A DNA stretch of 64,000 nucleotides, from contig NC_089452.1 in assembly GCF_026210795.1 (NCBI RefSeq), positions 1,178,001-1,242,000 on the forward strand. The letters run 5' to 3'. Every line of letters starts with the position of its first letter. Position 1 is the first letter of the stretch. The position numbers and the translations under genes are program-made. Of this stretch, positions 2,126-53,693 are shown one piece after another. The notes under the pieces were generated by a model, which was given only the letters and a program-made list of their open reading frames with translations, was not told the origin of the DNA and made no database searches. This stretch comes from Rhizophagus irregularis (taxonomy: Eukaryota > Glomeromycota > Glomeromycetes > Glomerales > Glomeraceae).

Positions 2126-3359
2126 GGATCAATTTTCTAACCAGCTATAGTAAAAATGATTCGATAAATCGGGTCACGTGATCATTAACCAATAAAATTT
2201 AAGAACGTGATGCGGTAAATCTTGATTTTGGCCAGAATTATAAAAATCTTAATTCCGGCCAAAGTTATATATTACTTATATATTCAATTAAAATATTTTA
2301 TATTTATTTTCATGACCAAAAACTAAGATAAAAAATTAAAATATAATGTGTATTAATTTTATTAGCATGAATTTTTCAAAAAAATTCAGTATAATAGATT
2401 TTTAATATATTCGCTATACCGGATATCCTGATAAACCGGATATTTTTAGTGGAACCGATAGATCCGGTTTATCGAATTTCACTGTGTATTAAGAGTCAGT
2501 TAAGAATTGGGTCCAATCAGGTTTTTGGTTCTTAACTGGCTCTATTTTTTTTATCAGTATTCTGATAGGCCTATAAATTTTACCCTATGAGATAATGATA
2601 ATTTTTAAGAGATACCAGGTTCAAATTTGTAAAAAGTTGGTTTCTCAATCATTAATTGATAAATCTCCGATAATATTATCAATTAATTATTGCTAAATCA
2701 CCAGTAAATTATCTGTACACATGCTTGTTACTGTACAATATGCATTTTTTATTTCTAAAAAAAATTCCAGAGTACGCAGTCCAGACACTATCCAAATCTA
2801 ACAAAATAGGCATGGTACTGACTTCTTTATTAATAACATTCTATAGTAGTAGATTTTTTAATTAGAAAGTTTTGTACATATCAAATTTTAAGTATTGTTT
2901 ACTACCATTGTTTATTTCATGTTAATAATGATATTGGTTTATTATTAACGTTAATTAATATGATATGTTAAGTAAATTGTTAAAAATAGTAATAAAAATT
3001 CATATTTCTCAATGCAATTGTAGTTTAACACAATATATTATGTTTCTTAATGCCATTAAATAGCACATATAAATATTATCTGTTATATACTATTTATTAC
3101 ACTAACTATAATGTTTTTCTTAAAGAAAAAAAAGGGCCGGGGAGATGATCTAAATAAAGTATCATGTGTAAGCCGCAGTATTACCGTCACGTGAAAATAA
3201 ACAGTGAAACTCGGACGGGTGACGATGTGATAAATAAAGCGATCACGTGACTGTGCAAAAATTGCCTGTGCGACTGGGCTAGTTCGTTCATGATTTTTAT
3301 ACCGATCATTCTAAAAATATATGGGTTAGCCAAATTTAAACATAATGTTTAAATAATGT
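2081..3359. other. AT-rich non-coding stretch with a poly(A) tract and a short hairpin
   Basis: No credible coding region is visible. A run of more than 20 A lies near 2095-2124, just upstream of copy A. Arms AGAGTCAGTTAAGAA (from 2492) and TTCTTAACTGGCTCT (ending near 2543) form an inverted repeat of about 52 bp with one mismatch. CACGTG occurs near 2176. Confidence 0.5.
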
Positions 3360-3360
3360 T

Positions 3361-4990
3361 TTGTATTTCGGAACTTCATTTTTTCTTTTTAATGGTAAGT
3401 TTAAAAGTTGAAAATATTGTTTTGGAAATATTTTACTAAATGTTTCCTTTTTACTTTCTTTAAAAAACACTATAGGAACTTCGGCTTCATTTCAAAATGC
3501 TGGATTTCTAAGTGAGTTTAATTCTCAATAAAAAAAATACTTACTGTATTTGTTTTATTTATTTAATTGTATTTTTTGTTTTTTTTTTATAATCAGCTCC
3601 AATTCCAAAAATCGTAATTTCAGTTAATATTTTCGAAAGCTTATCTATCGTTATAAAGAAAAAAAAGTACTTTTTTTTTGTAGAGATTTGATATGCAAAA
3701 TCCCTAGATAAATGTTCAAAAACTTAATAAACAATTGTTTTTTTTTTATAGGAATCTGATTCCAATTTTGAAAACTGGATCCTAAATAAGTTTTTTGAAC
3801 ATTAACCTTTCGTTCAAAAATTTTTTCAAAAAAATATTTTTTTATTAAAACTGAAATCCCAGAGTTCAACTTATCATTTTTATTTTTTTAAAAAAATATA
3901 TAAAGCGACTCTGAAAACAACAAAATGGTGGTTAGTTTCGCATTATTCACTTTTTTATATCGATTTTATATAATAAACGTGAGTTCCGATACCGCAATTA
4001 CTTTTTATATATGGAATTAATATAAAAAAGTGAATTCCGTGCGAAACTAGATTTCAGGTCAGATCACGCTGTAAATGCATGAAATGTAAATTTTGTAACG
4101 GGATATTGCAAAATGAATGTTTTTTTTATAGAAACATTAAAACTAATATTTTTATTTTACTTTCTTTTATAGGCTTTGATGTTAAATTTAGCTTTGGATC
4201 CTCCTTTTCAGTGAATTTTGAAATTTATTATTTTTTTTTAAGAAATGATCTCTGACATTTTATGTTTCTTTATAGATTCTGACTTTGATAGCCTTTGGAT
4301 GGTAGGTTCAAAGTTAACTTCAAACCTTTTTTTATTTTTTTTTAATTAGAATCATGTTTAACATTTCTTTTATCATAGGTCTTAGAATTCAGCATTTTAC
4401 TACCTATAAGAAATATCAGATGTTTTTTTTTTTAATTTTTATAAATTTCGTATTTTTGGGCTTTTAGTAGGTTATTTTTAATGAAATTACAGAATGACTT
4501 CTTTTAATGGAATTTTAGAATTGACTTAACAAAACACATTTAACGATTTTTTTTTAATTTTTGTAGATTCTCTATTTCCAAGTGAGTAGTTATTTTTTTA
4601 ATGGGATTTTAGAGATGATTTTAAGGAACGCATTTAATGGTTCTTTTTTTAATTTTTTATAGGTTCCATATTTTTCGATTTTATTTGACCTTTACATAGT
4701 AAGTTATTTTTTTTTAGTGGATTTACAATTGATTTAGAAATGCATTAACTGTATTCTTTTTTTTTAGATTTTATCCAAACTTAATTAGGTTATTTCTTTT
4801 GGGATGTAGTTTCAGAATTGTGCACTAACCGTTTCTTTCCTTTAACTTTTATAAGCTTTGTTGTTCAAGACATCTATAGGACCGTGGTGTATTAATTTTT
4901 TTAGGCAGGTTTCAAAATGGACTTTAGGAAGCGTACTAATGTTTCTTTTTTTAATTTTTGTAGGCTATTATGTAGTACAATCTGTAAAGA
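3361..4990 (+). other. Tandem array of intron-like units with micro-exon-like segments
   Basis: Units of roughly 100 bp repeat along the plus strand. Each has a donor-like GTAAGT, GTGAGT or GTAGGT, an AATGGRATTTTAGAATTG-type middle, a branch-point-like TTGACTTAAC, GCATTAAC or GCACTAAC, a T run and a 3' TTTTTGTAG or TTTTATAG. Between them lie short segments: 3476-3511, 3597-3622, 3752-3789, 4173-4210, 4276-4301, 4379 onward, 4567-4581, 4663-4698, 4768 onward. The starts 4173, 4276 and 4379 are 103 bp apart; 4567, 4663 and 4768 are 96 and 105 bp apart. Several segments resemble each other (CTGGATCC and TTTGGATCC cores). The array either encodes a many-exon transcript or is a satellite that happens to carry splice-like motifs. 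No long reading frame exists, so product and frame are unknown. Confidence 0.5.
3932..4060. mobile_element. Short palindromic MITE-like element inside the array
   Basis: The left end TAGTTTCGCATTATTCAC followed by TTTTTTATAT is mirrored by ATATAAAAAAGTGAATTCC and GTGCGAAACTA on the right, giving imperfect terminal inverted repeats of about 30 bp in a unit of about 129 bp. No coding capacity. It interrupts the roughly 100-bp periodicity of the surrounding array. A target duplication is not clear. Confidence 0.5.
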
Positions 4991-15870: not shown

Positions 15871-18800
15871 ATGGAAATTGAATTTTGTAAACCTAATATC
15901 TCAGATAAAAATATTGATGCAATAGGCACCAAAAATTGTTTGTATTGCAATATACTTTTTACTGAAGAATTATGGTGTAAAGAATGTATTAATTCTTTAG
16001 AAAAATTAGCAGAAAATGGTGATAAAGTAGCAATGTTAAATTTAGCCAACTATCATAAGAATGGAAAGGAAACGGAAAAAAATTTAGAAAAAGCAATTTA
16101 TTGGTATCAAAAAGCAGCAGAAAAAGATCATATTACAGCAATGTTTAATTTAGCCTTATGTTATGAAGATGGAAAAGGAACAGAAAAGAACTTTGAAAAA
16201 TCCTTTTATTGGTATCAAAAGGCAGCAGAAGAAGATCATATTACAGCAATGTTCAAATTAGCCAATAATTATTATTTTGGAAAGGGAACGGAAAAGAATT
16301 TTGAAAAATCCTTTTATTGGTATCAAAAAGCAGCAGAAAAAGATCATATTACAGCAATGTTTAATTTAGCCTTATGTTATGAAGATGGAAAAGGAACAGA
16401 AAAGAATTTTGAAAAATCCTTTTATTGGTATCAAAAAGCAGCAGAAAAAAATCATATTAAAGCAATGTTTAAATTAGCCAATAATTATTATTTTGGAAAA
16501 GGAACAGAAAATAATTTTGAAAAATCCTTTTATTGGTATCCAAAGGCAGCAGAAAGAGATCATATTAATGCAATGTTTAGTTTAGCCAATAATTATTATT
16601 TTGGAAGAGGAACAGAAAAGAATTTTGAAAAATCCTTTTATTGGTATCAAAAAGCAGCAGAAAAAGATCATATTAATGCAATGTTTAATTTAGCCAATTG
16701 ATATTCTAATGGAAAAGGAACAGAAAAGAATTTTGAAAAATCCTTTTATTGGTATCAAAAAGCAGCAGAAAAAGATCATATTGATGCAATGTTTTTCTTA
16801 GCCATTCGATATTATAATGGAGTAGGAACAGGAGAAAATTTTGAAAAATCCTTTTATTGGTATCAAAAAGCAGCAGAAAAAGATCATATTGATGCAATGT
16901 TTTGCTTAGCCATTCACTATTGTAATGGAGTAGGAACAGAAAAGAATTTTAAAAAATCCTTTTATTGGTATCAAAAAGCAGCAGAAAAAGATCATATTAC
17001 AGCAATGTTTAATTTAGCCTTATGTTATGAAGATGGAAAAGGAACAGAAAAGAACTTTGAAAAATCCTTTTATTGGTATCAAAAAGCAGCAGAAAAAGAT
17101 CATATTGATGCAATGTTTTGCTTAGCCATTCAATATTGTAATGGAGTAGAAACAGAAAAGAATTTTGAAAAATCCTTTTATTGGTATCAAAAAGCAGCAG
17201 AAAAAGATCATATTAGTGCAATGTTTAATTTAGCCAATGGATATTTTAACGGAAAAGGAACAGAAAAGAATTTTGAAAAATCCCTTTATTGGTATCAAAA
17301 AGCAGCAGAAAAAGATCATATTAATGCAATGTTTAATTTAGCCTTATGTTATAAAGATGGAAAAGGAACAGAAAAGAGCTTTGAAAAATCCTTTTATTGG
17401 TATCAAAAAGCAGCAGAAAAAGATCATATTAATGCAATGTTTAATTTAGCTAATGGATATTTTAACGGAAAAGGAACAGAAAAGAATTTTGAAAAATCCT
17501 TTTATTGGTATCAAAAAGCAGCAGAAAAAGATCATATTACAGCAATGTTTAATTTAGCGTTATGTTATGAAGATGGAAAGGGAACGGAAAAGAATTTTGA
17601 AAAATCCTTTTATTGGTATCAAAAAGCAGCAGAAAAAGATCATATTACAGCAATGTTCAAATCAGCCAATAATTATTATTTTGGAAAGGGAACGGAAAAG
17701 AATTTTGAAAAATCCTTTTATTGGTATCAAAAAGCAGCAGAAAAAGATCATATTACAGCAATGTTTAATTTAGCCTTATATTATGAAGATGGAAAAGGAA
17801 CAGAAAAGAATTTTGAAAAATCCTTTTATTGGTATCAAAAAGCAGCAGACAAGGGTCATATTGATGCAATGTTTAATTTAGCTAAATGTTATAGAAATGG
17901 AGAAGGAACAGAAAGGAATTTAGAAAGGGCCTTTTATTGGCGTCAAATAGCAGTAGAGAGTAACAAAACAAATTCTAAAAATGAAGCTGAATATTGTAAT
18001 GAATGCTTGCAACCAGATACTGACTACCAATGGTGCCAACAATGTAATACTAAGCGATTTCAACAAGATTTTTCAAAGTGGACTAGTAAAAATAAATTTA
18101 TTGATGAATTTGTTCAAGGAACACAGCTAAATGCCAAAAATTGTTATGAAATTTTAGAGTGGATACCTTATAACAAATTGTCAAATATTAATTATTATGA
18201 TAAAGGAGGATTTAGTGAAATTCATAAAGCTATTTGGTCAGATGGACCTATTTTTAATTGGAATTTTGATAAACAACAATGGAATAGACAAACATGTTAT
18301 GAAGTTGTTCTTAAAATACTTAATAATTCATCAAGTTTAAATAGTGAATTTCTGAATGAGGTATAGTATTTATAGTTAATAGCAAACTTTATTTTCTTGT
18401 ACAAAGTTTGATAATTTTTTTGTTATTTACATAGTGGAAATATCATTATAATTGTCAGAAAAAATCATTTTCAAAATTTATTCAGTTCTTTGGATTTACC
18501 CAAGATCCAAATAATTTAAATTATATTATAGTAATGAGTTATGCAAAAAAAGGAAGTTTGAGAAAATGCTTATCTGATATAATTAAAATCAAATGGCAAG
18601 ATAAGTTACAATTATTGAAAAAAATCATATTAGGACTTAAAGTAATGCATGAATCAAATTTAATTCATGGTGATTTTCATGATGGTAATATTTTAATGTC
18701 AGATGATTACAATGAGTTATTTATTATTGATTTAGGATTATGCAAACCTATAAGTGATTTAAAAGATTCTGATAATAAAGTTAATGAAGTTTATGGAGTT

Positions 18801-27649: not shown

Positions 27650-30600
27650 TTAAAGATTATCCAAGTTTTCTTTGACTTCAGGATGTGCATTTTTTATAAC
27701 CTTCTTATACCAATAAATTGCACCATGAATAATCTTTTTGTATACCCTACCTTTTTCATATAAAGATGCAAGACGTTTTTGGGCTTCAACATTTCCCCCT
27801 TGCTCTGCCTTTTGATACCAATAAATAGCTTTTTTTCGGTCCTTTTTTACCCCTTGCCCACAATAATATAAATAACCAAGGCTATTTTGCGCATTACTAT
27901 CTCCTTTCTCAGCTGAATTTTCATAATATTCAAAAGCATTAACTTCATCTTTTTCTACTCCTTTACCTAATTCATAACATTTACCCAAGTTATATTGTGC
28001 TCCTTTATCTCCTTTTTCAGCTGCTAATCTATACCAATAAATAGCTTTTTCTAAGTTTATTTCTGTTCCATCACCATATTCATATAATATTCCAAGAATA
28101 TTTTGTGCAATACTATGTCCTTTTTCAGCTACTTTTTTATATAATTCAAATGCTTTTAATTTATTAACTTCAGTTCCAATTCCATTGAAATAACAATATC
28201 CAAGTTGAAGTTGAGCGTCTAAATGTTCTTCTTTGGCTGGTTTTTCATAATACTCAAAAGCTACAAATTCATCTTTCTCAACTCCTATTCCTAATCTATA
28301 ACATTGACCCAAATTATATAATGCCATGGCATGGTCTTTTTTAGCTGCTTCTTCATATAGTTCAATTGCTTTTGTTTTATTAACTTCAGTTCCAATCCCA
28401 TTAAAATAACAATATCCAAGTTGAAATTGAGCATTTAAATATCCTCCTTCAGCTGACTTTTTATAATATTCAAAAGCTCTAAATTCACTTTTTTCTACTC
28501 CCTTACCTAATTCATAACATTGGCCCAGATTGTATAATGCTACTATTTCTCCTTTTTCAGCTGCTTTATTATACCAGTAAATAGCCTTTTTTAAATCTTT
28601 CTCTGTTTCTTCACCATATTCATATAATGATCCAAGATTATTTTGAGCCATAGTATGTTCTTTTTCAGCTGCTTCTTTATAATATTCAACTGCCTTCATT
28701 TTATTAATTTCAACTCCAATTCCATTATAAAAGCAGCAACCAAGTTTATATTGAGCATCCAAATATCCTTTTTCAGCTGATTTATTATAATATTCAAATG
28801 CTTTAATTTCATCTTTTTCAACACCTATTCCTAATTCATAAGATTCACCTAAATTATATAATGCACTAGCATTTCCATTTGCTGCTGCCATTTGATACCA
28901 ATAAATAGCTCTTTTTCGGTCCTTTTTTACCCCTTGCCCACAATCATATAAATAACCAAGGTTATTTTGCGCATTACTATCTCCTTTTTCAGCTGATTTT
29001 TCATAATATTCAAATGCTTTTACATGATTAATGTCAGTTCCAATTCCTTTATAATAGCAATATCCAAGTTGAAATTGAGCATCTAAATATCCTGATTCGG
29101 CTGACTTTTTATAATATTTAAAAGCATTAACTTCATCTTTTTCTACTCCTTTACCTAATTCATAACATTGACCCAAGTTATATTGTGCTCCTTTATCTCC
29201 TTTTTCAGCTGCTCTATTATACCAATAAATAGCTTCTTCTAAGTTTTTTTCTGTTCCATCTTCGTACTCATATAATACTCCAAGAATATATTGTGCAATA
29301 CTATGTCCTTTTTCAGCTACTTTTTCATATAACTCAAATGCTTTTAATTTATTATGTTCAGTTCCAATTCCATTAATATAACAATATCCAAGTTGAAGTT
29401 GAGCGTCTAAATGTTCTACTTTGGCTAGTTTTTCATAATACTTGAAAGCTATAACTTCATCTTTCTCAACTTCTATTCCTAATCTAAAACATTGACCCAA
29501 ATTATATAATGCCATGGCATGGTCTTTTTTAGCTGCTTCCTCATATAGTTCAATTGCTTTTGTTTTATTAACTTCAGTTCCAATCCCATTAAAATAACAA
29601 TATCCAAGTTGAAATTGAGCATTTAAATATCCTCCTTCAGCTGACTTTTTATAATATTCAAAAGCTCTAATTTCACTTTTTTCTACTCCCTTACCTAATT
29701 CATAACATTGACCTAAGTTATATTTTGCCATCTCATTTCCACCTTCAGCTGCTTTATTATACCAGTAAATAGCATTTTCTAGATCTTTTTCTGTCCCTTT
29801 CTCATATTCATATAATAGTGCAAGATTATTTTGTGCAATATTATGTCCTTTTTCAGCTACCTTTTTATATAATTCAAATGCTTTTGATTTATTGACTTTA
29901 ACTCCGATCCCTATATCATAATAATATCCAAGTTTAAATTGAGCATCCAAATATCCTTTTTTAGCTGACTTTTCATAATATTCAAAAGCTTTAATTTCAT
30001 CCTTCTCAACTCCTTTTCCTGATTCATAACATTGGGCCAGGTTGTATAATGCTACTGTTTCTCCTTTTTCAGCTGCTTCATTATACCAATAAATAGCCTT
30101 TTCTAAATCTACTTCTGTTCCTTCACCATATTCATACAATGATCCAAGATTATTTTGAGCCATCTCATTTCCACCTTCAGCTGCTTTATTATACCAATAA
30201 ATAGCCTTTTCTACTTTTGATTTATTAACTTCAGCTCTGATTCCTTTATCATAATAATATCCAAGTTTAAATTGAGCATCCAAATATCCTTTTTCAGCTG
30301 ACTTTTCATAATATTCTAAAGCTTTAATTTCATCCTTTTCAACTTCTTTTCCTGATTCATAACATTGACCCAGATTGTATAATGCTCCTATTTCTCCTTT
30401 TTCAGCTGCTTTATTATACCAATAAATAGCTTTTTCTAAATCTTTTTCTGTTCCTTCACCATATTCGTATAATAATCCAAGATAATTTTGAGCCATAATA
30501 TGTTCTTTTTTAGCTGCTTCTTTATAATATTCAATTGCCTTCATTTTATTAATTTCAGCTCCAATTCCATTATAATAGCAGCAACCAAGTTTATATTGAG

Positions 30601-33600
30601 CATCCAAATATCCTTTTTCAGCTGACTTTTCATAATATTCAAATGCTTTAATTTTATCTTTTTCAACTCCTTTTCCTGATTCATAACATTGACCCAGATT
30701 GTATAATGCTACCATTTCTCCTTTTTCAGCTGCTTTATTATACCAATAAATAGCCTTTTCTAAATCTTTTTCTGTTTCTTCACCATATTCATATAATAAT
30801 CCAAGATAATTTTGAGCCATAGTATGTTCGTTTTCAGCTGCTTCTTTATAATATTCAATTGCCTTCATTTTATTAATTTCAGCTCCAATTCCATTATAAT
30901 AGCAGCAACCAAGTTTATATTGAGCATCCAAATATCCTTTTTTAGCTGACTTTTTATAATATTCTAAAGCTTTAATTTCATCTTTTTCTACTCCTTTACC
31001 TAATTCATAACATTGACCCAAGTTATATATTGCCATCTCATTCCCATCTTCGGCTGCTTTATTATACCAATAAAAAGCCTCTTTTAAATCTTTTTCTGTC
31101 CCTTCCCCATATTCATATAATAGTCCAAGGTTATTTTGTGCAATATTATGTCCTTTTTCAGCTACCTTTCTATATAATTTAAATGCTTTTGGTTTATTAA
31201 CTTCAGCTCCGATTCCTTTATCATAACAATATCCAAGTTGGAGTTGAGCATCCAAATGTCCTTTTTCGGCTGATCTCTCATAATATTTAAGAGCCTTAAT
31301 TTCATCTTTCTCAACTCCTATTCCTAATCTATAACATTGACCCAAATTATATAATGCTACTATTTCTCCTTTTTCAGCTGCTCTATTATACCAATAAATG
31401 GCTTTATCTAAGTTTTTTTCTGTTCCTTCACCATATTCATATAATAATCCAACATTATTTTGAGCTATCAAATGATTTTTTTTGGCTGCTTTTTTAAATA
31501 ACTTAAATGCTTCTAATTTATCAACTTTAGTTCCAACTCCTAAATAATAACATATTGCAAGTTGTAAATATCCATATATGTCTTCTTTTTTGAATAATTT
31601 TGTATATATTTCAAATGCTTTGCTTTCATTTTTTTCTACTCCTTTTCCAAGTTCATAACACTTTCCTAAGTAAATTGATGCAATTTTGTTGTTATTATTT
31701 GCTGACATTTGATACCAATAAAAAGCTTCATTTGGATCTACATCAGTTCCTATACCATATCCATAATAATTGGCAAGATAAAGCTGTCCACAAATACTTT
31801 CATTATTTACAGTTTTTTTTATCCAATAAATTGCTAAGTTATGATCAATTTTAGTTCCAATTCCATGTCTATAAAATATGCTTAAGTATACTTGCGCGAT
31901 AGGGTAATTGTCCTTTGCTGCTTTTGAAATTAATTTAAATGCATTTTCATCATTGTTTTCTTCTAAAGTAAATTCATTAAAATAAAAAAATCCAAGAAAA
32001 AAGATGTAAGATGATTTTGTTTGATTTTCTTTAAGCCATTCAAAAATATTACTTGATGTCTGATTTGAGAGAGATATACAATGGTTAATGAAATGTTTTG
32101 TCTCTTTAATACTATTTTCTTCTTCTTGTGTTTTAATCAAAAGTATAATTAAATTATCAATAAGAGTATTTATATCATCTGCTATGTTGAATATTTCTAA
32201 AAATAATTTTTCTGCTAGATCTAATATGTCTGAGTTAACTTCATTATTCAAATGATCCAGTATTATTTTACTCAGATATAGTTCAGAATTATTACTCATC
32301 ATATATTCTATAGAATTATTACTAAGCATACATGCTAAATTAGGTATAATTGATTGAGAATGGTTCTCTTGTAATAATTCTGTCTTGTTTTCCAAAGAAT
32401 TAATCTCATCATTATTTTCTCCAAAAATTATTTGCTTAAGAAATTTAACGACTTGATGTATAGTAGGGCGTTTAGTTGGATCATCTTCCCAACATACTAA
32501 AAGAAATTAAAAAAATTAATATTCTTAATTAATTATATAATAACATATGCCCTATAAAAAGTGTTTGTCTGATAAATATTCGTAATGTGGTCTATTTTCC
32601 GAACACTCGCACGTTATTGTACAATATTTGTTACAATTTAATACAAGATGCAGAGATTGAGAATTTTCGACCACGTAAAAAACGTACAATATCATGATAA
32701 TTGTCCAATAAATGTCAAGTAAATGTTCGGAACGGGGTCAATTTCCGAACAAAAAACTGAACAGTGTTTGGACAACTTTTTTTTATAGGGATGATAACTT
32801 CAGTTAATAGGACCCAGAAATATATATAAAAGGGTCAGGTTTGAGTTTGCGTATTTTGAACTAAAAAAAAAATCATGAAAATCTTTCCTTTTTTGGATAA
32901 TTTTTGATAATACCAGTCAGAACTTTATTTCCTATTATAGTACCGACTGACATTATCATAATTCCGGCCCTGAAAAAATGCGTACAGCAAAATTTTTTTC
33001 ATCACCTGACCCCTATATATATATTTCTGGGTCCTAGTTAATATTTACCTTTATATAAATTACTATATTCAATAGGAGTATCCTAGGACCCCGAAATATA
33101 TATGTAGAGGTCAGGTCCAGAAGTGGTCCAAAATACGCATTCTTTCAGGGCCGGAATTACGATAATTTCAGCCATTATCTAAATTAGGAAATATTATTTT
33201 GGCTGGGATTATCCATAAAAGGAATGATCTACATGATTTTTTTGACTCATTATACGCAAACTCTGACCTGACCCTTTTATGTATATTTCGGGGTCCTAGT
33301 ATCCTTGACAGTTTTTTCTCTTTGTCCTTTTATAATATTCATGATCAAATTTGCATCATATTCTACATTTTCAGCATAAAAAGGTCTATGTCCACTTGAA
33401 ATTTGCCAAAGGAGGACTCCTACACTATAAATATCAGACTTTGCATTTAATTTATATGGTTGGCTTTTATCCTTAATATTATTCAAATATTTTGGGTCAA
33501 TATAAGGAACAACACCAAGAACATTTGCTGAATTATATAATATATCAGTTATTTTTCTTGATAAACCAAAGTCCGCTAACTTTATTTTATTTTGATGTAC

Positions 33601-36059: not shown

Positions 36060-37040
36060 GTGATGAGCTGTAGCAGTATTTCCGCAGGTATCAAAAAATT
36101 TTTTCAGTTTTTAGATCATTTTTTTTTATTTTAAAATCTCGTTAACCGATATTTTTTTCAAAAACTTTTTTTTTCAACTTTTTTTAAATCATTTTTTTTA
36201 AAAAAATTTTTTCCTTCATTCGGTTTAGTTTTTTTTTCTAAAACTTTTTTCATTTTTCTTTTTCGATTTGGTTTTTTTTGAGCCGAATTTTTTTAAAATT
36301 TTTTTCCTTTATAATCTATACTATATACAATTTTTTTATATATTGTTATATAGTACATTATTTATTTTTATTTTTTAGACTTGAATCTAGATCAGTAATC
36401 GGATTGACGCTGCGATGTTACGGTAAGCACCTTTTTTTCATCCTTATTTTCAATAATATTTTTTTCCTAATTATTCTTTTTTCGTTCTTTCACCCAGCCG
36501 AATGATGCTGCGGTGCTACGGCAAGCGCCTTTTTTTTCGATTTTTAATTTTAATATTTTTTTTTCCGAATTATTTTTTACTAATTTTTTTCCCTATTTTT
36601 TTTTTTATTCTTTCACCTTTGAGGTTTGGATCAAAGTCAGTACTCGAAATAAATATTTTTTTGGGAATTGTTAACCGTCACCTGGGTATTCAATCACGTG
36701 ATAGATTTAATATTTTTGATTGGCCAGATTGGCCACATGATTGCGTCATGTTATTCGGTTCTTTCGGTCTCAAGGTATTTTTCTTTTCTTTTATTTTTAT
36801 TTCTAACTTACATTCTGCTTACACTTTGTTTCTTATTACTCTATTTCATTATTTTTAGGTCCTTTAGTCCTTCCGGTTCTGCAATTAAGGTTCGGTTGTT
36901 TTTCACTTTACGTTTCGTTTCTTACTCATTTTTTTTATTTTTTTTATTTTGTTTCTGTTTCATATTTCGTTTTTCACAAATTTTATTTCATTTTTTTTTT
37001 AGATATTTTAGTTCTTTCGGTTCTACAATTAATAAAGGTA
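36060..37040 (+). other. Second micro-exon-like array in a T-rich tract
   Basis: Short segments bounded by splice-like signals repeat along the plus strand: 36379-36422 (after TTTTTTAG, before GTAAGC), 36498-36520 (after CACCCAG, before GCAAGC), a segment ending at 36774 (before GTATTT), 36859-36889 (after TTTTTAG, before GTTCGG) and 37003-37037 (after TTTTTTTAG, before GTATGT). The first two share GACGCTGCGATGTTACG / GATGCTGCGGTGCTACG, and the last three share CTTTCGGTTCT-type cores. The spacers are 75-110 nt of almost pure T and A. No long frame exists. Coding status is unproven. Confidence 0.45.
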
Positions 37041-39178
37041 TGTTTATTTATTTATTAATTTATTTTTCGTTTCTATCTTATATTTCGTTTCTTACTAACT
37101 TATTTTTTTTTACTATTTTTACTTGGTTTCCTATCATTACCCAACCTCCTATCATGATCATTTTTTTATTTTTTGTATTATTTCTCATTATTCCATCCTT
37201 CCGTCTCCCATCACTCCTCTTCGTCTCCCAGCATGTCCTATTTCTCCTTTTTGTTTCCTATCACTTCTCATTACTTTTTCATCTTCTATTACTCCATTGT
37301 TGTTTCATTTTTTTATTAGCATCTTTCTCCTTGATCATTGTAATTTACCTATCTTTATTATTTATTATTGTTGTTTTTTTATTTGTATCACTTCATTAAG
37401 AGTAAATACGGTGATTTTTTTCTTTAAAAAAAATTTTTTGCAAACATATTTATTCAAAATAATCTTATTTAATGAAATTTTATTTGCAATTATTAAAATT
37501 TAAGTCACACATTTACGATTTTAGACTTCGCGATCAAAAATTAGCTAAGTTAAAAAAATCAGCCATCAGCCAATTAATAAATTTACTATATACTATTGTA
37601 CATCATGTGACATATTTGAAAAAAAACCCAGGCGAGGCGACAATTGCCCAGGCGACGGTTAGCAATCCCCCCTTTTTATTTGAATAAGTATGTTTTGTAT
37701 GATTTTTTTTTAGTTGAAGCTGTATTACAAACGTAAACCATAATCGTTGCTAAATTTATTATGTGATTGGACCTGGATTATTACAGAAATCGTGGAAGAT
37801 ATAGAAGTTTTGATAGAAAAATATAAATCAGAAGGAGCAATTAAAAATTACAGAGGTGATTTGGTGTTGTAAATCTTAATTAATTATTTTTTTGTTCAAT
37901 GTAAGGTATTTTATATAAATAAATTTATACTTTATTTAAATATTATCATCGTCTGTTTAAAACAAAAAATATTCATTATTGATATATGAACAAATATTGG
38001 TAATAGATTACTAAAGGTGAACGCTCTCCAGAATCCTTTTTTGTTTGGCGGATTAGTCATTCTGCTAAATATGTAGGCAGTATGACTTGGATTGACATAT
38101 TGATACTAATTAGAGAAGCCACTATATTATATTTGCTCGTAAAATATAATAAATAGTGTAAATAAATAATTATTTAGCCTGATCATTTATTTTTAATTTA
38201 TTTATTTTTTTTTGTTTGTTAATATTTGATTTTTTTCATTTTAATTAATTATTTTAAAATATTAAGAAGGAAAACGTAGTTTATAACATTATTATAACAT
38301 TTACACTAAGACTTATATGGTACATTGGTACACCAGTATTGACAAATCTATCATCGCTTGTTCAGATGATCACAATTCCACTATGTTGTGAAATATTTAT
38401 ACTGTAGGTCTAGACTCATAGGAAGCAATATAATGATACATAAAAACTTTATTAAGTAATTAAGTTTTTATATTTATAATTGTAAAAATAGAAATAAGAT
38501 TAAATAAAAAAGAAAATATTTTAATAGGTTACTATGAACGTGGTTCAATGGTTGTTTTTACGTACAAATAATTTAACTTATAAATTTAACTAAAAATCTT
38601 ACTATATATATTAACTTGATTTATCCATCTTGTAGTCTTATACATAATTTATTGAAATTTTACTTACAGAATAAATAGAAAAAAACAGAACATTTCATTG
38701 GTCAAATTTCATATACGTTGAACGCATAACGCCGACCAATTGTGTTTGAATCTTTGAATCTATAGCGTTTCTCATTATTTTGCTTTTATCACATTTCTAA
38801 CTAATTGAGTTGAAAAAAAAATCTACTGTTTTGAACATTTTTGAGATGTTTTTTAAAAAGATTGCTCAAAATCTAATAGTAAAAATATTCGTTTATCGAA
38901 CAATGGTAAAATGATTGCGATATATTTTAGAGGTGATTTTCATTCTTTGTGTATACGTGGAATAAAATTTCAAAACCACCACAAACAAGTCATCATTTGC
39001 GACAAATATTTCCTGTCTATTACGAAAAAAATACCAAGAAAAATTATCAAACATATATTAAAATTGTCTTAAACCACGCACAACATATATAATAAGTCGG
39101 TACATAAATTCTTTATTTATTTAATGTACAAGCAACACTTACAGGATACAAAGTTAAACCCAAATATGAATTATCTTA
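37041..39178. other. AT-rich region without intact genes
   Basis: 37041-37400 is T-rich low-complexity sequence. CCCAGGCGAGGCGACAATTG is followed directly by a partial repeat (CCCAGGCGACGG) near 37628-37660. An F-box relic lies at 37788-37872. The rest downstream to the lipase shows nothing recognisable. Confidence 0.45.
37788..37872 (+). pseudogene. C-terminal scrap of an F-box-like gene
   Basis: The sequence reads DIEVLIEKYKSEGAIKNYR and a stop, matching the C-terminal DLIEEYKSERIIKN of the gene at 43874-45268. Nothing of the upstream coding region remains. Confidence 0.6.
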
Positions 39179-52331: not shown

Positions 52332-53693
52332 TATACTTGCCGCCCATATAAATGGGATTGGGAGAATCCCATATCCCATCCCACCCATATCCCATCCCAT
52401 ATCCCATTTATCCCATCCCATTTGTCATAATCCCATTCCAATCCCAAATCCCAATCCCATTCCAATCCCATATCCCATATCCCATCCCATATCCCATTAA
52501 TCTTATACATGTATATTGTGTAACCTTACTCCCATTGGTCTATCTATCACGTGATGTTACACAAAATTCCAAAAAAGGAAATTTTTCTTCCCACAAAAAA
52601 TGAGAGATTTGGTTTCACAAGCATTCCGAAAAAGGAAATTTTTATGCCGATCATATAATTCCGGCCAGAATTACAGCTCTAGTATTACGGTCCTTTTTCA
52701 AATTAGTTTTTTGCGATTTTCTCAATATCCAGTGATCCAATTTTGATAAACTTTTTTTTAATTTGTAGCTAATATTAAGCTCTATAAAATAAAAAAATTT
52801 CTTGCAAGAAATAATAAAAAAAAAGAGCAGATTAGGTTAATTTTTGCAAAAAGCCATTATGAATTCTATAATAGATGTCTGAGGTCCTGTAATATCAATT
52901 AAATAAGAATATTTGGAATTAATTTTTTATTGTTGCATTTATAAAAAAACATTACAAAATTATAAATTTTTTATAACAAAAATGTAATATTTTAACTTTA
53001 TTTTAACCTATCTATTAAAATAATAAAAAATTTATCTATAAAATAATAAATAATAATTCATTAACATCAAATGCTTAGTATTTAATTAAAATGGCTTGGT
53101 ATTCAATAAAAATGGATTTAGTTTTCTAATTTTTTTAATTTAAATTTAAATTATTAGCATATACAGTATAAGATATAATATCTTTAAAGAGATTTATTTA
53201 TAATTTTTTGTATATTTAATTATTTGTAAAGTATTAACCTATTAAGCATTCATATTATTATCATATAATCTGTAATTAATCAATTCTTAGATTAAAGAGT
53301 ATTATATTTGAAAAAATTTTATGTTAAAAAAGAAGGAGTTTGCTATTTATCGCCGGAGTCACGTAATTTTTAATTTTGGCCGGAATTAAGTGATCGACAT
53401 AAAATTTCCTTTTTTGGATTATCGTGTAACTCATTTCCCCGTTTTTGATGAGAATCAAAATTGCCTTTTTTGGATTGTGTAACGTTACTCAAGTGCCCAA
53501 AAAAGGAAATTTTGACCGGAATTATAAAATTTGGCTGAAATTATAGGAAATGGGATTTGGGATGGGATTTGGGATTTGGGATGGGATTGGGATTGGGATT
53601 TGGGATTGGAATGGGAATGGGATTTGGGATTTGGGATGGAATGGGATGGGATGGGATGGGACTCCCATCCCATTTAAATGGGCGGCAAGTATA
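52332..53693. mobile_element. hAT-like non-autonomous element with CCCAT subterminal repeats, 1,362 bp
   Basis: The ends TATACTTGCCGCCCAT are inverted, and the flanks GGCACAAT (52324-52331, 53694-53701) are an exact 8-bp duplication. The first 165 bp hold about 20 CCCAT/CCCATATCCC units and the last 150 bp hold the mirror GGGAT/GGGATTT units. Further in, both arms carry TCCAAAAAAGGAAATTTT and AATTCCGGCCAGAATT-type blocks in opposite order. The middle (52700-53330) is AT-rich with no transposase. Confidence 0.88.

Follow-up and report, generated by a model that had tools for sequence, protein, structure and literature searches.

Serial intron and micro-exon arrays in Rhizophagus irregularis as candidate non-coding loci with constrained introns

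Near the start of a 64,000-nucleotide stretch of the Rhizophagus irregularis genome (contig NC_089452.1, positions 1,178,001 to 1,242,000; hereafter the window), splice-like motifs recur at short intervals between positions 3361 and 4990. An earlier note, made from the sequence alone, read this segment as an array of short introns and micro-exons that, if transcribed, might diversify a small, possibly secreted product, and named a satellite with splice-like motifs as the alternative. Is the segment a gene built of tiny exons, a satellite, or something else?

We scored the segment as a chain of donor, branch and acceptor signals, using matrices trained on the arrays of two other loci, L016 and L017; because L016–L029 were fetched for their likeness to the window, this model is not fully independent of it. 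On the forward strand the three signals recur in order through nine units at 4058–4963, with a chain score of 73.7. None of 500 dinucleotide shuffles in 250-bp blocks reached this value (mean 16.1, maximum 44.7), and no other chain in the window, on whichever strand, scores as high; 20 shuffles of the full window gave at most 37.0. Under the same model the minus strand of 4041–4990 holds zero chains, and the minus strands of the left and right array stretches carry none or almost none of the chain signal. A strict GT..AG parse kept eight introns in the right part (score 44.3) and one in the left part (3361–3943), where the chain score of 19.5 was reached by 2 of 500 shuffles. On our reading, acceptor-like sites in the right half recur every 88–108 bp, and canonical pairs leave segments of 15–38 nt between them. 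The ordered motifs first described across all of 3361–4990 are thus firm at 4058–4963 and weak at 3361–3943, and they do not extend to 3945–4037, which is an insertion. The features are as follows.

3361–3943, forward strand: left, weak part of the array
3395–3475, forward strand: canonical pair GTAAGT..TAG, paired by hand
3476–3511, forward strand: 36-nt segment between two canonical pairs
3512–3596, forward strand: canonical pair GTGAGT..CAG, paired by hand
3945–4037, no strand assigned: inserted palindromic repeat, outside the array unit, separating the left and right parts
4058–4963, forward strand: main array of about nine intron-like units
4211–4275, forward strand: intron-like segment GTGAAT..TAG
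4276–4301, forward strand: micro-exon-like segment, 26 nt
4302–4378, forward strand: intron-like segment GTAGGT..TAG
4471–4566, forward strand: intron-like segment GTTATT..TAG with a weak donor (the strict chain places its donor at 4450)
4567–4581, forward strand: micro-exon-like segment, 15 nt
4582–4662, forward strand: intron-like segment GTGAGT..TAG
4663–4698, forward strand: micro-exon-like segment, 36 nt
4699–4767, forward strand: intron-like segment GTAAGT..TAG
4768–4788, forward strand: micro-exon-like segment, 21 nt
4909–4964, forward strand: 3' half of the last intron through its acceptor, the window stretch best shared with other arrays and matched at many places in the genome

A genome search with the whole segment returned 535 matches; among those listed, all but the self match cover 3945–4037, which marks this piece as inserted. 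This palindromic repeat matches the genome in hundreds of places, often as tandem copies spaced by about 52 bp. Because it swamped this first search, the array halves were searched separately: 3361–3930 found only itself in the genomic DNA, and 4125–4990 found 26 further matches (best E 1.6e-12). By eye, the array of locus L042 is likewise broken by an inverted-repeat element.

The window copy is also worn. ATAAGT at 3786 and ATAAGA at 4406 stand where donors are expected, AAG replaces an acceptor at 4853–4855, and exact GTAAGT occurs in one of nine parsed window introns versus 84 of 129 elsewhere. The nine introns show no excess structure (z −0.82 in the branch region, 0.21 in the first 50 nt), and this, with the worn sites, suggests that the copy is perhaps dead. 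The segment is a worn, partly decayed member of a genome-wide class of arrays and may be a relic. That its short segments resemble one another, as had been noticed, is only weakly true: the likeness is mostly intronic (best self match 4499–4577 to 4593–4673, 78%), a tandem-repeat finder reported no array of about 100 bp in 3361–4990, and autocorrelation gave no sharp period, as unit lengths vary.

The class itself is large. An exact pattern of acceptor, 16–46 nt, GTAAGT, 30–60 nt and CTAAYNTTTC matched the genome 421 times and its backward version once; a version with each motif reversed had no match in the genome. With the first gap set to 66–96 there were 30 matches (backward control 2), and at 186–216 there were 57 (control 5), so that micro-exon spacing is preferred; by eye, 11 of these 57 belong to a single dispersed sequence, and many of the rest are neighbouring array units. 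The 100 matches listed of the 421, all on contigs C1–C7, group into 56 loci separated by more than 5 kb, at least two exact matches falling in each of 21 loci, and scaling from 100 to 421 extrapolates to about 240 loci genome-wide. Ten fixed, unselected 10-kb pieces yielded no chain of 25 or more, a loose bound on density which indicates that the arrays are not everywhere. The search for further arrays of the same unit, proposed in the earlier note, thus brought to light hundreds of relatives.

Cleaner loci make the unit plain. L016 and L017 carry clean arrays of a 112-bp unit, which joins an intron of 79–81 nt to an exon of 32 nt. The plan recurs, with different sequence, in an array on the opposite strand of L016 and in another downstream in L017. 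Repeated duplication of an intron-plus-exon unit, as the earlier note proposed, is supported by these loci. Five others (L019, L020, L021, L027 and L028) are array-like in a loose parse, fail the strict score filter and stand outside the intron, exon and pair counts below. Among the entries listed by searches of the open-access literature, we found no account of such arrays in arbuscular mycorrhizal (AM) fungi.

Tandem, palindromic, A+T-rich and multi-copy, and with a worn representative in the window, the arrays could be an untranscribed satellite whose unit resembles an intron plus an exon by chance and whose hairpins are DNA palindromes. Against this stands the way in which copies diverge. 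Between L040 and L046, no GT (0/28), donor +3 to +6 (0/56) or AG (0/28) position has changed, with 73/410 changes in exons and 73/704 in the rest of the intron. Sites are lost between L047 and L040 (GT 2/16, AG 2/18), and 4 of 40 donor +3 to +6 positions differ between L016 and L017; L018 and L017 have no aligned classified positions and contribute nothing to these counts. Pooled over ordered pairs, which are not independent, changes number 4/200 at GT, 10/404 at +3 to +6, 6/226 at AG, 588/5513 at other intron positions and 509/3137 in exons, that is, 2–3% at GT and AG versus 16% in exons and 11% in the rest of the intron. The branch motif (61/690, from the same non-independent pairs) is not much below other intron positions. 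Further, the AG lies outside both hairpins described below, and branch motif, T tract and TAG hold the order and length of an intron. A plain satellite, the alternative named in the earlier note, is too simple a description where splice sites resist substitution while the rest of the array diverges, and we regard it as improbable.

Exons diverge faster than introns in all five array pairs compared by unit-by-unit alignment (0.106/0.052, 0.076/0.035, 0.077/0.051, 0.049/0.015 and 0.133/0.053; pairs not independent). Micro-exon divergence is 1.5–3 times the intron rate, and exons remain the faster at A/T sites alone. Part of the difference follows from the higher G+C of exons (0.42 versus 0.24 in introns) and from CpG-like positions, which change fast in both. 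From these alignments, it seems to be the introns rather than the exons that evolution has kept.

Introns at intact loci average 85 nt and have strong donors and branch points, usually with a hairpin at the branch point and often with one at the donor that shows compensatory changes. Across 138 distinct introns, taken from 16 parsed chains in 12 loci and in the window, the branch region is more stably folded than shuffled sequence (mean z −2.86, 70% below −2), as do the first 50 nt (mean z −2.01, 49% below −2). A stem starting at the donor is present in 58 of the 138, versus a mean of 8.6 (range 4–12) in 20 shuffles; some such stems, those of the 112-bp unit, link donor and branch region and form no local hairpin. 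By eye, the window intron 4302–4378 has a relative in L019 with a perfect palindrome at the donor, in the corresponding position. A pattern for introns with a local hairpin matched the genome 190 times and never backward. The inner stem is absent from this search pattern, and in 34 distinct inner sequences of at least 11 nt, drawn from related and hence not independent arrays, the first three inner pairs are Watson–Crick in 97, 100 and 82% of cases, all above the maxima of 5000 permutations (76, 94 and 74%). Pairs 4 and 5 (68 and 71%) lie below their maxima in the same permutations (76 and 79%). The stem thus covaries in its first three inner pairs.

As controls we used 12 accepted introns out of 17 gaps in three chaperonin genes, their borders set by script. 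None of the 12 had a branch-region z below −2, an exact GTAAGT or a branch match of 6/7; the last two occur in 65% and 70% of array introns (n = 129), a gap partly due to the choice of L040–L047 by a pattern requiring GTAAGT and CTAAY. In L016 and L017, which were not picked by pattern, 23 of 42 introns have exact GTAAGT and 35 a branch motif of at least 6/7. No Rfam family reached its gathering score, either in the window or in nine array loci; the nine loci gave seven matches that fell short of it (E 0.00027 to 0.066). A miRNA or mirtron reading was dropped: the sub-threshold miRNA matches lie, by coordinates, outside the array introns, and the listed donor stems are of 7–16 bp.

The small product of the earlier note could be a protein, made by schistosome-like or effector-like micro-exon genes diversified through alternative exon use. 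Fast micro-exons between conserved introns would also be expected of a diversifying effector, and in two arrays the open frame is rather long (on the minus strand of L016, 12 of 300 shuffles equal it; in L040, 20 of 300). Yet the lengths of 119 distinct predicted micro-exons ignore three (34, 30 and 55 with remainders 0, 1 and 2), of the 17 exon indels that separate paralogous arrays, 14 disrupt the frame and three are of length three, and the joined exons of 15 parsed arrays have no consistent excess of open frame, the longest frame being matched by 12 to 300 of 300 shuffles. In the 400 nt that precede the first parsed donor, a span that would miss first exons farther away, none of 11 loci has a convincing signal-peptide first exon. 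Seven of them have no ATG frame of at least eight codons running into the first donor, and the other four have short ones (window, 13 codons; L047, 10; L016, 22 and 13; L019, 11). In L018 and L021–L025 a 62-codon frame occupies the exon after the array; its pN/pS ranges from 0.26 to above 1, one pair having no synonymous change, it is interrupted by a stop in L024 and by a frameshift in L025, and it has no Pfam match at E 1. Dimers of this conserved terminal exon gave no coding signature. The proposal of a small secreted product is left without support, and we consider protein-coding genes very improbable.

Arrays have also travelled with their surroundings. L040, L041, L046 and L047 have long flanks beside the array in common, which indicates that the copied pieces were larger than the arrays. 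Both L017 and L018 have, ahead of the array, a frame that carries the hAT dimerisation domain (PF05699; E 1.5e-12 and 2e-7, respectively), and L016 and L017 are 98% identical over the 1.9 kb before the array. A terminal-repeat-like end was seen, by eye only; the array may sit inside the hAT element. In L043, two arrays point apart with about 0.3 kb between them, and matches in a similar arrangement occur at C2:4060691 (minus strand) and C2:4061714 (plus strand).

Such dispersal suits the main rival of our reading, in which a selfish repeat persists because splicing removes it. It would make no RNA product; units with working splice sites would be tolerated since an array within a transcript is mostly removed, leaving short exons. 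Dispersed copies with long common flanks, the adjoining hAT-domain frames of L017 and L018, worn copies such as the window and constrained splice sites in non-coding sequence are all expected of it. Camouflage alone does not predict hairpins at branch and donor or their compensatory changes, and arrays within host genes are not apparent, though few flanks were seen. We judge this explanation unlikely, though less so than either a satellite or a protein.

The reading that we prefer, with a probability of about one half, is that the serial arrays are non-coding loci, constrained in their introns, that spread by duplication. They would be 'inside-out', a term used for snoRNA host genes. Each array grew by repeated duplication of one unit, consisting of an intron of about 85 nt (strong donor, TACTAAC-like branch point, T-rich tract and TAG) and an exon of about 15–50 nt. 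In intact members the branch point sits inside a short hairpin, and the donor often opens a second one. Intact arrays would be transcribed and spliced serially into a non-coding RNA, and selection would keep the introns once they are excised, or their splicing as such, with the micro-exons as spacers free to change. Arrays would then have spread as larger duplicated stretches, some copies coming to lie beside hAT transposase genes. Should intact arrays be transcribed, a major plant symbiont would harbour, in hundreds of copies, a kind of gene with reversed roles, its exons being spacers and its introns the part that is kept. Such loci would offer a natural test bed for the serial splicing of many tiny exons, for the roles of hairpins at donor and branch point and for the origin of new introns by duplication. 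Gene finders would overlook the arrays or call false micro-exon proteins.

A more specific version of this reading is possible, though on balance doubtful: the fungus may hold hundreds of 'intron factories', RNA genes of ten to twenty serial hairpin introns in which micro-exons are only spacers and the product is the excised structured introns, or a load on the spliceosome, possibly feeding the abundant small-RNA pathways of the fungus. One study of R. irregularis reports abundant small RNAs around young genes (PMC10234402).

Several known systems resemble the arrays in part. Schistosome micro-exon genes, according to one account (PMC10526429), have exons that are mostly a multiple of three, introns of 100 to almost 5000 bp and a conserved N-terminal signal peptide. 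Like them, the arrays string together very short exons, which change rapidly, and are suspected of a tandem origin; they differ in exon lengths that ignore three, introns of about 85 nt and no signal peptide found. Introner-like elements and the repeated stwintrons of ascomycete fungi are described as families of spliceosomal introns that resemble one another and have a symmetry able to form hairpins (PMC8469720, PMC9024468), and a stable intron hairpin is present in the arrays as well (donor stems and local-hairpin matches, above). Unlike these introns, which sit singly at unrelated positions in protein genes, the arrays multiply intron and exon together in tandem. Three apparently single hairpin introns, a small sample, all lie among further intron-like units, clearly so in L057 (10 units) and weakly in L056 and L058.

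Host genes of snoRNAs have poorly conserved non-coding exons and constrained introns (PMC11405852). Array exons, too, are non-coding and less constrained than the introns (five of five pairs), but the introns examined gave no Rfam match, to a snoRNA or otherwise, at gathering score, and the arrays are tandem and multi-copy. SP7-like effectors of AM fungi, as one report describes them, combine a signal peptide and protein repeats with a single conserved intron ahead of the first repeat (PMC11333574). They are repeat-bearing genes of the same fungus but are not built of serial micro-exons, and the arrays have many introns and no open frame. These effectors and other repeat proteins of AM fungi were set aside.

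Upstream of the arrays, CACGTG occurs seven times in eight loci of 800 bp each, versus 25 times in 100 kb of unselected sequence; the loci that bear it (L040, L041, L046 and L047) are mutually related, and the window has two more at 2900–3395. In L041, a pyrimidine-rich leader (880–1200) is complementary to purine-rich sequence at 3020–3110 near the 3' end of the array (best piece 61 aligned columns, 79%); both stretches are of low complexity, so the match may be chance.

Elsewhere in the window, the forward strand at 36300–37130 may hold a second, weaker array, whose chain at 36521–37125 scores 30.4; 15 of 500 shuffles reach this, which makes it suggestive only. Its exon-like segments are mutually alike, ending in TTCTGCAATTAAG and TTCTACAATTAATAAAG. 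Long repeat frames with DNA periods of 108 bp, which we take to be Sel1-like, occupy 15871–18366 and 27650–32506, and the neighbouring frames are presumably kinase-like. Repeats of ATCCCAT and TGGGAT at 52366–52497 and 53549–53661, about 1 kb apart, are mutually inverted.
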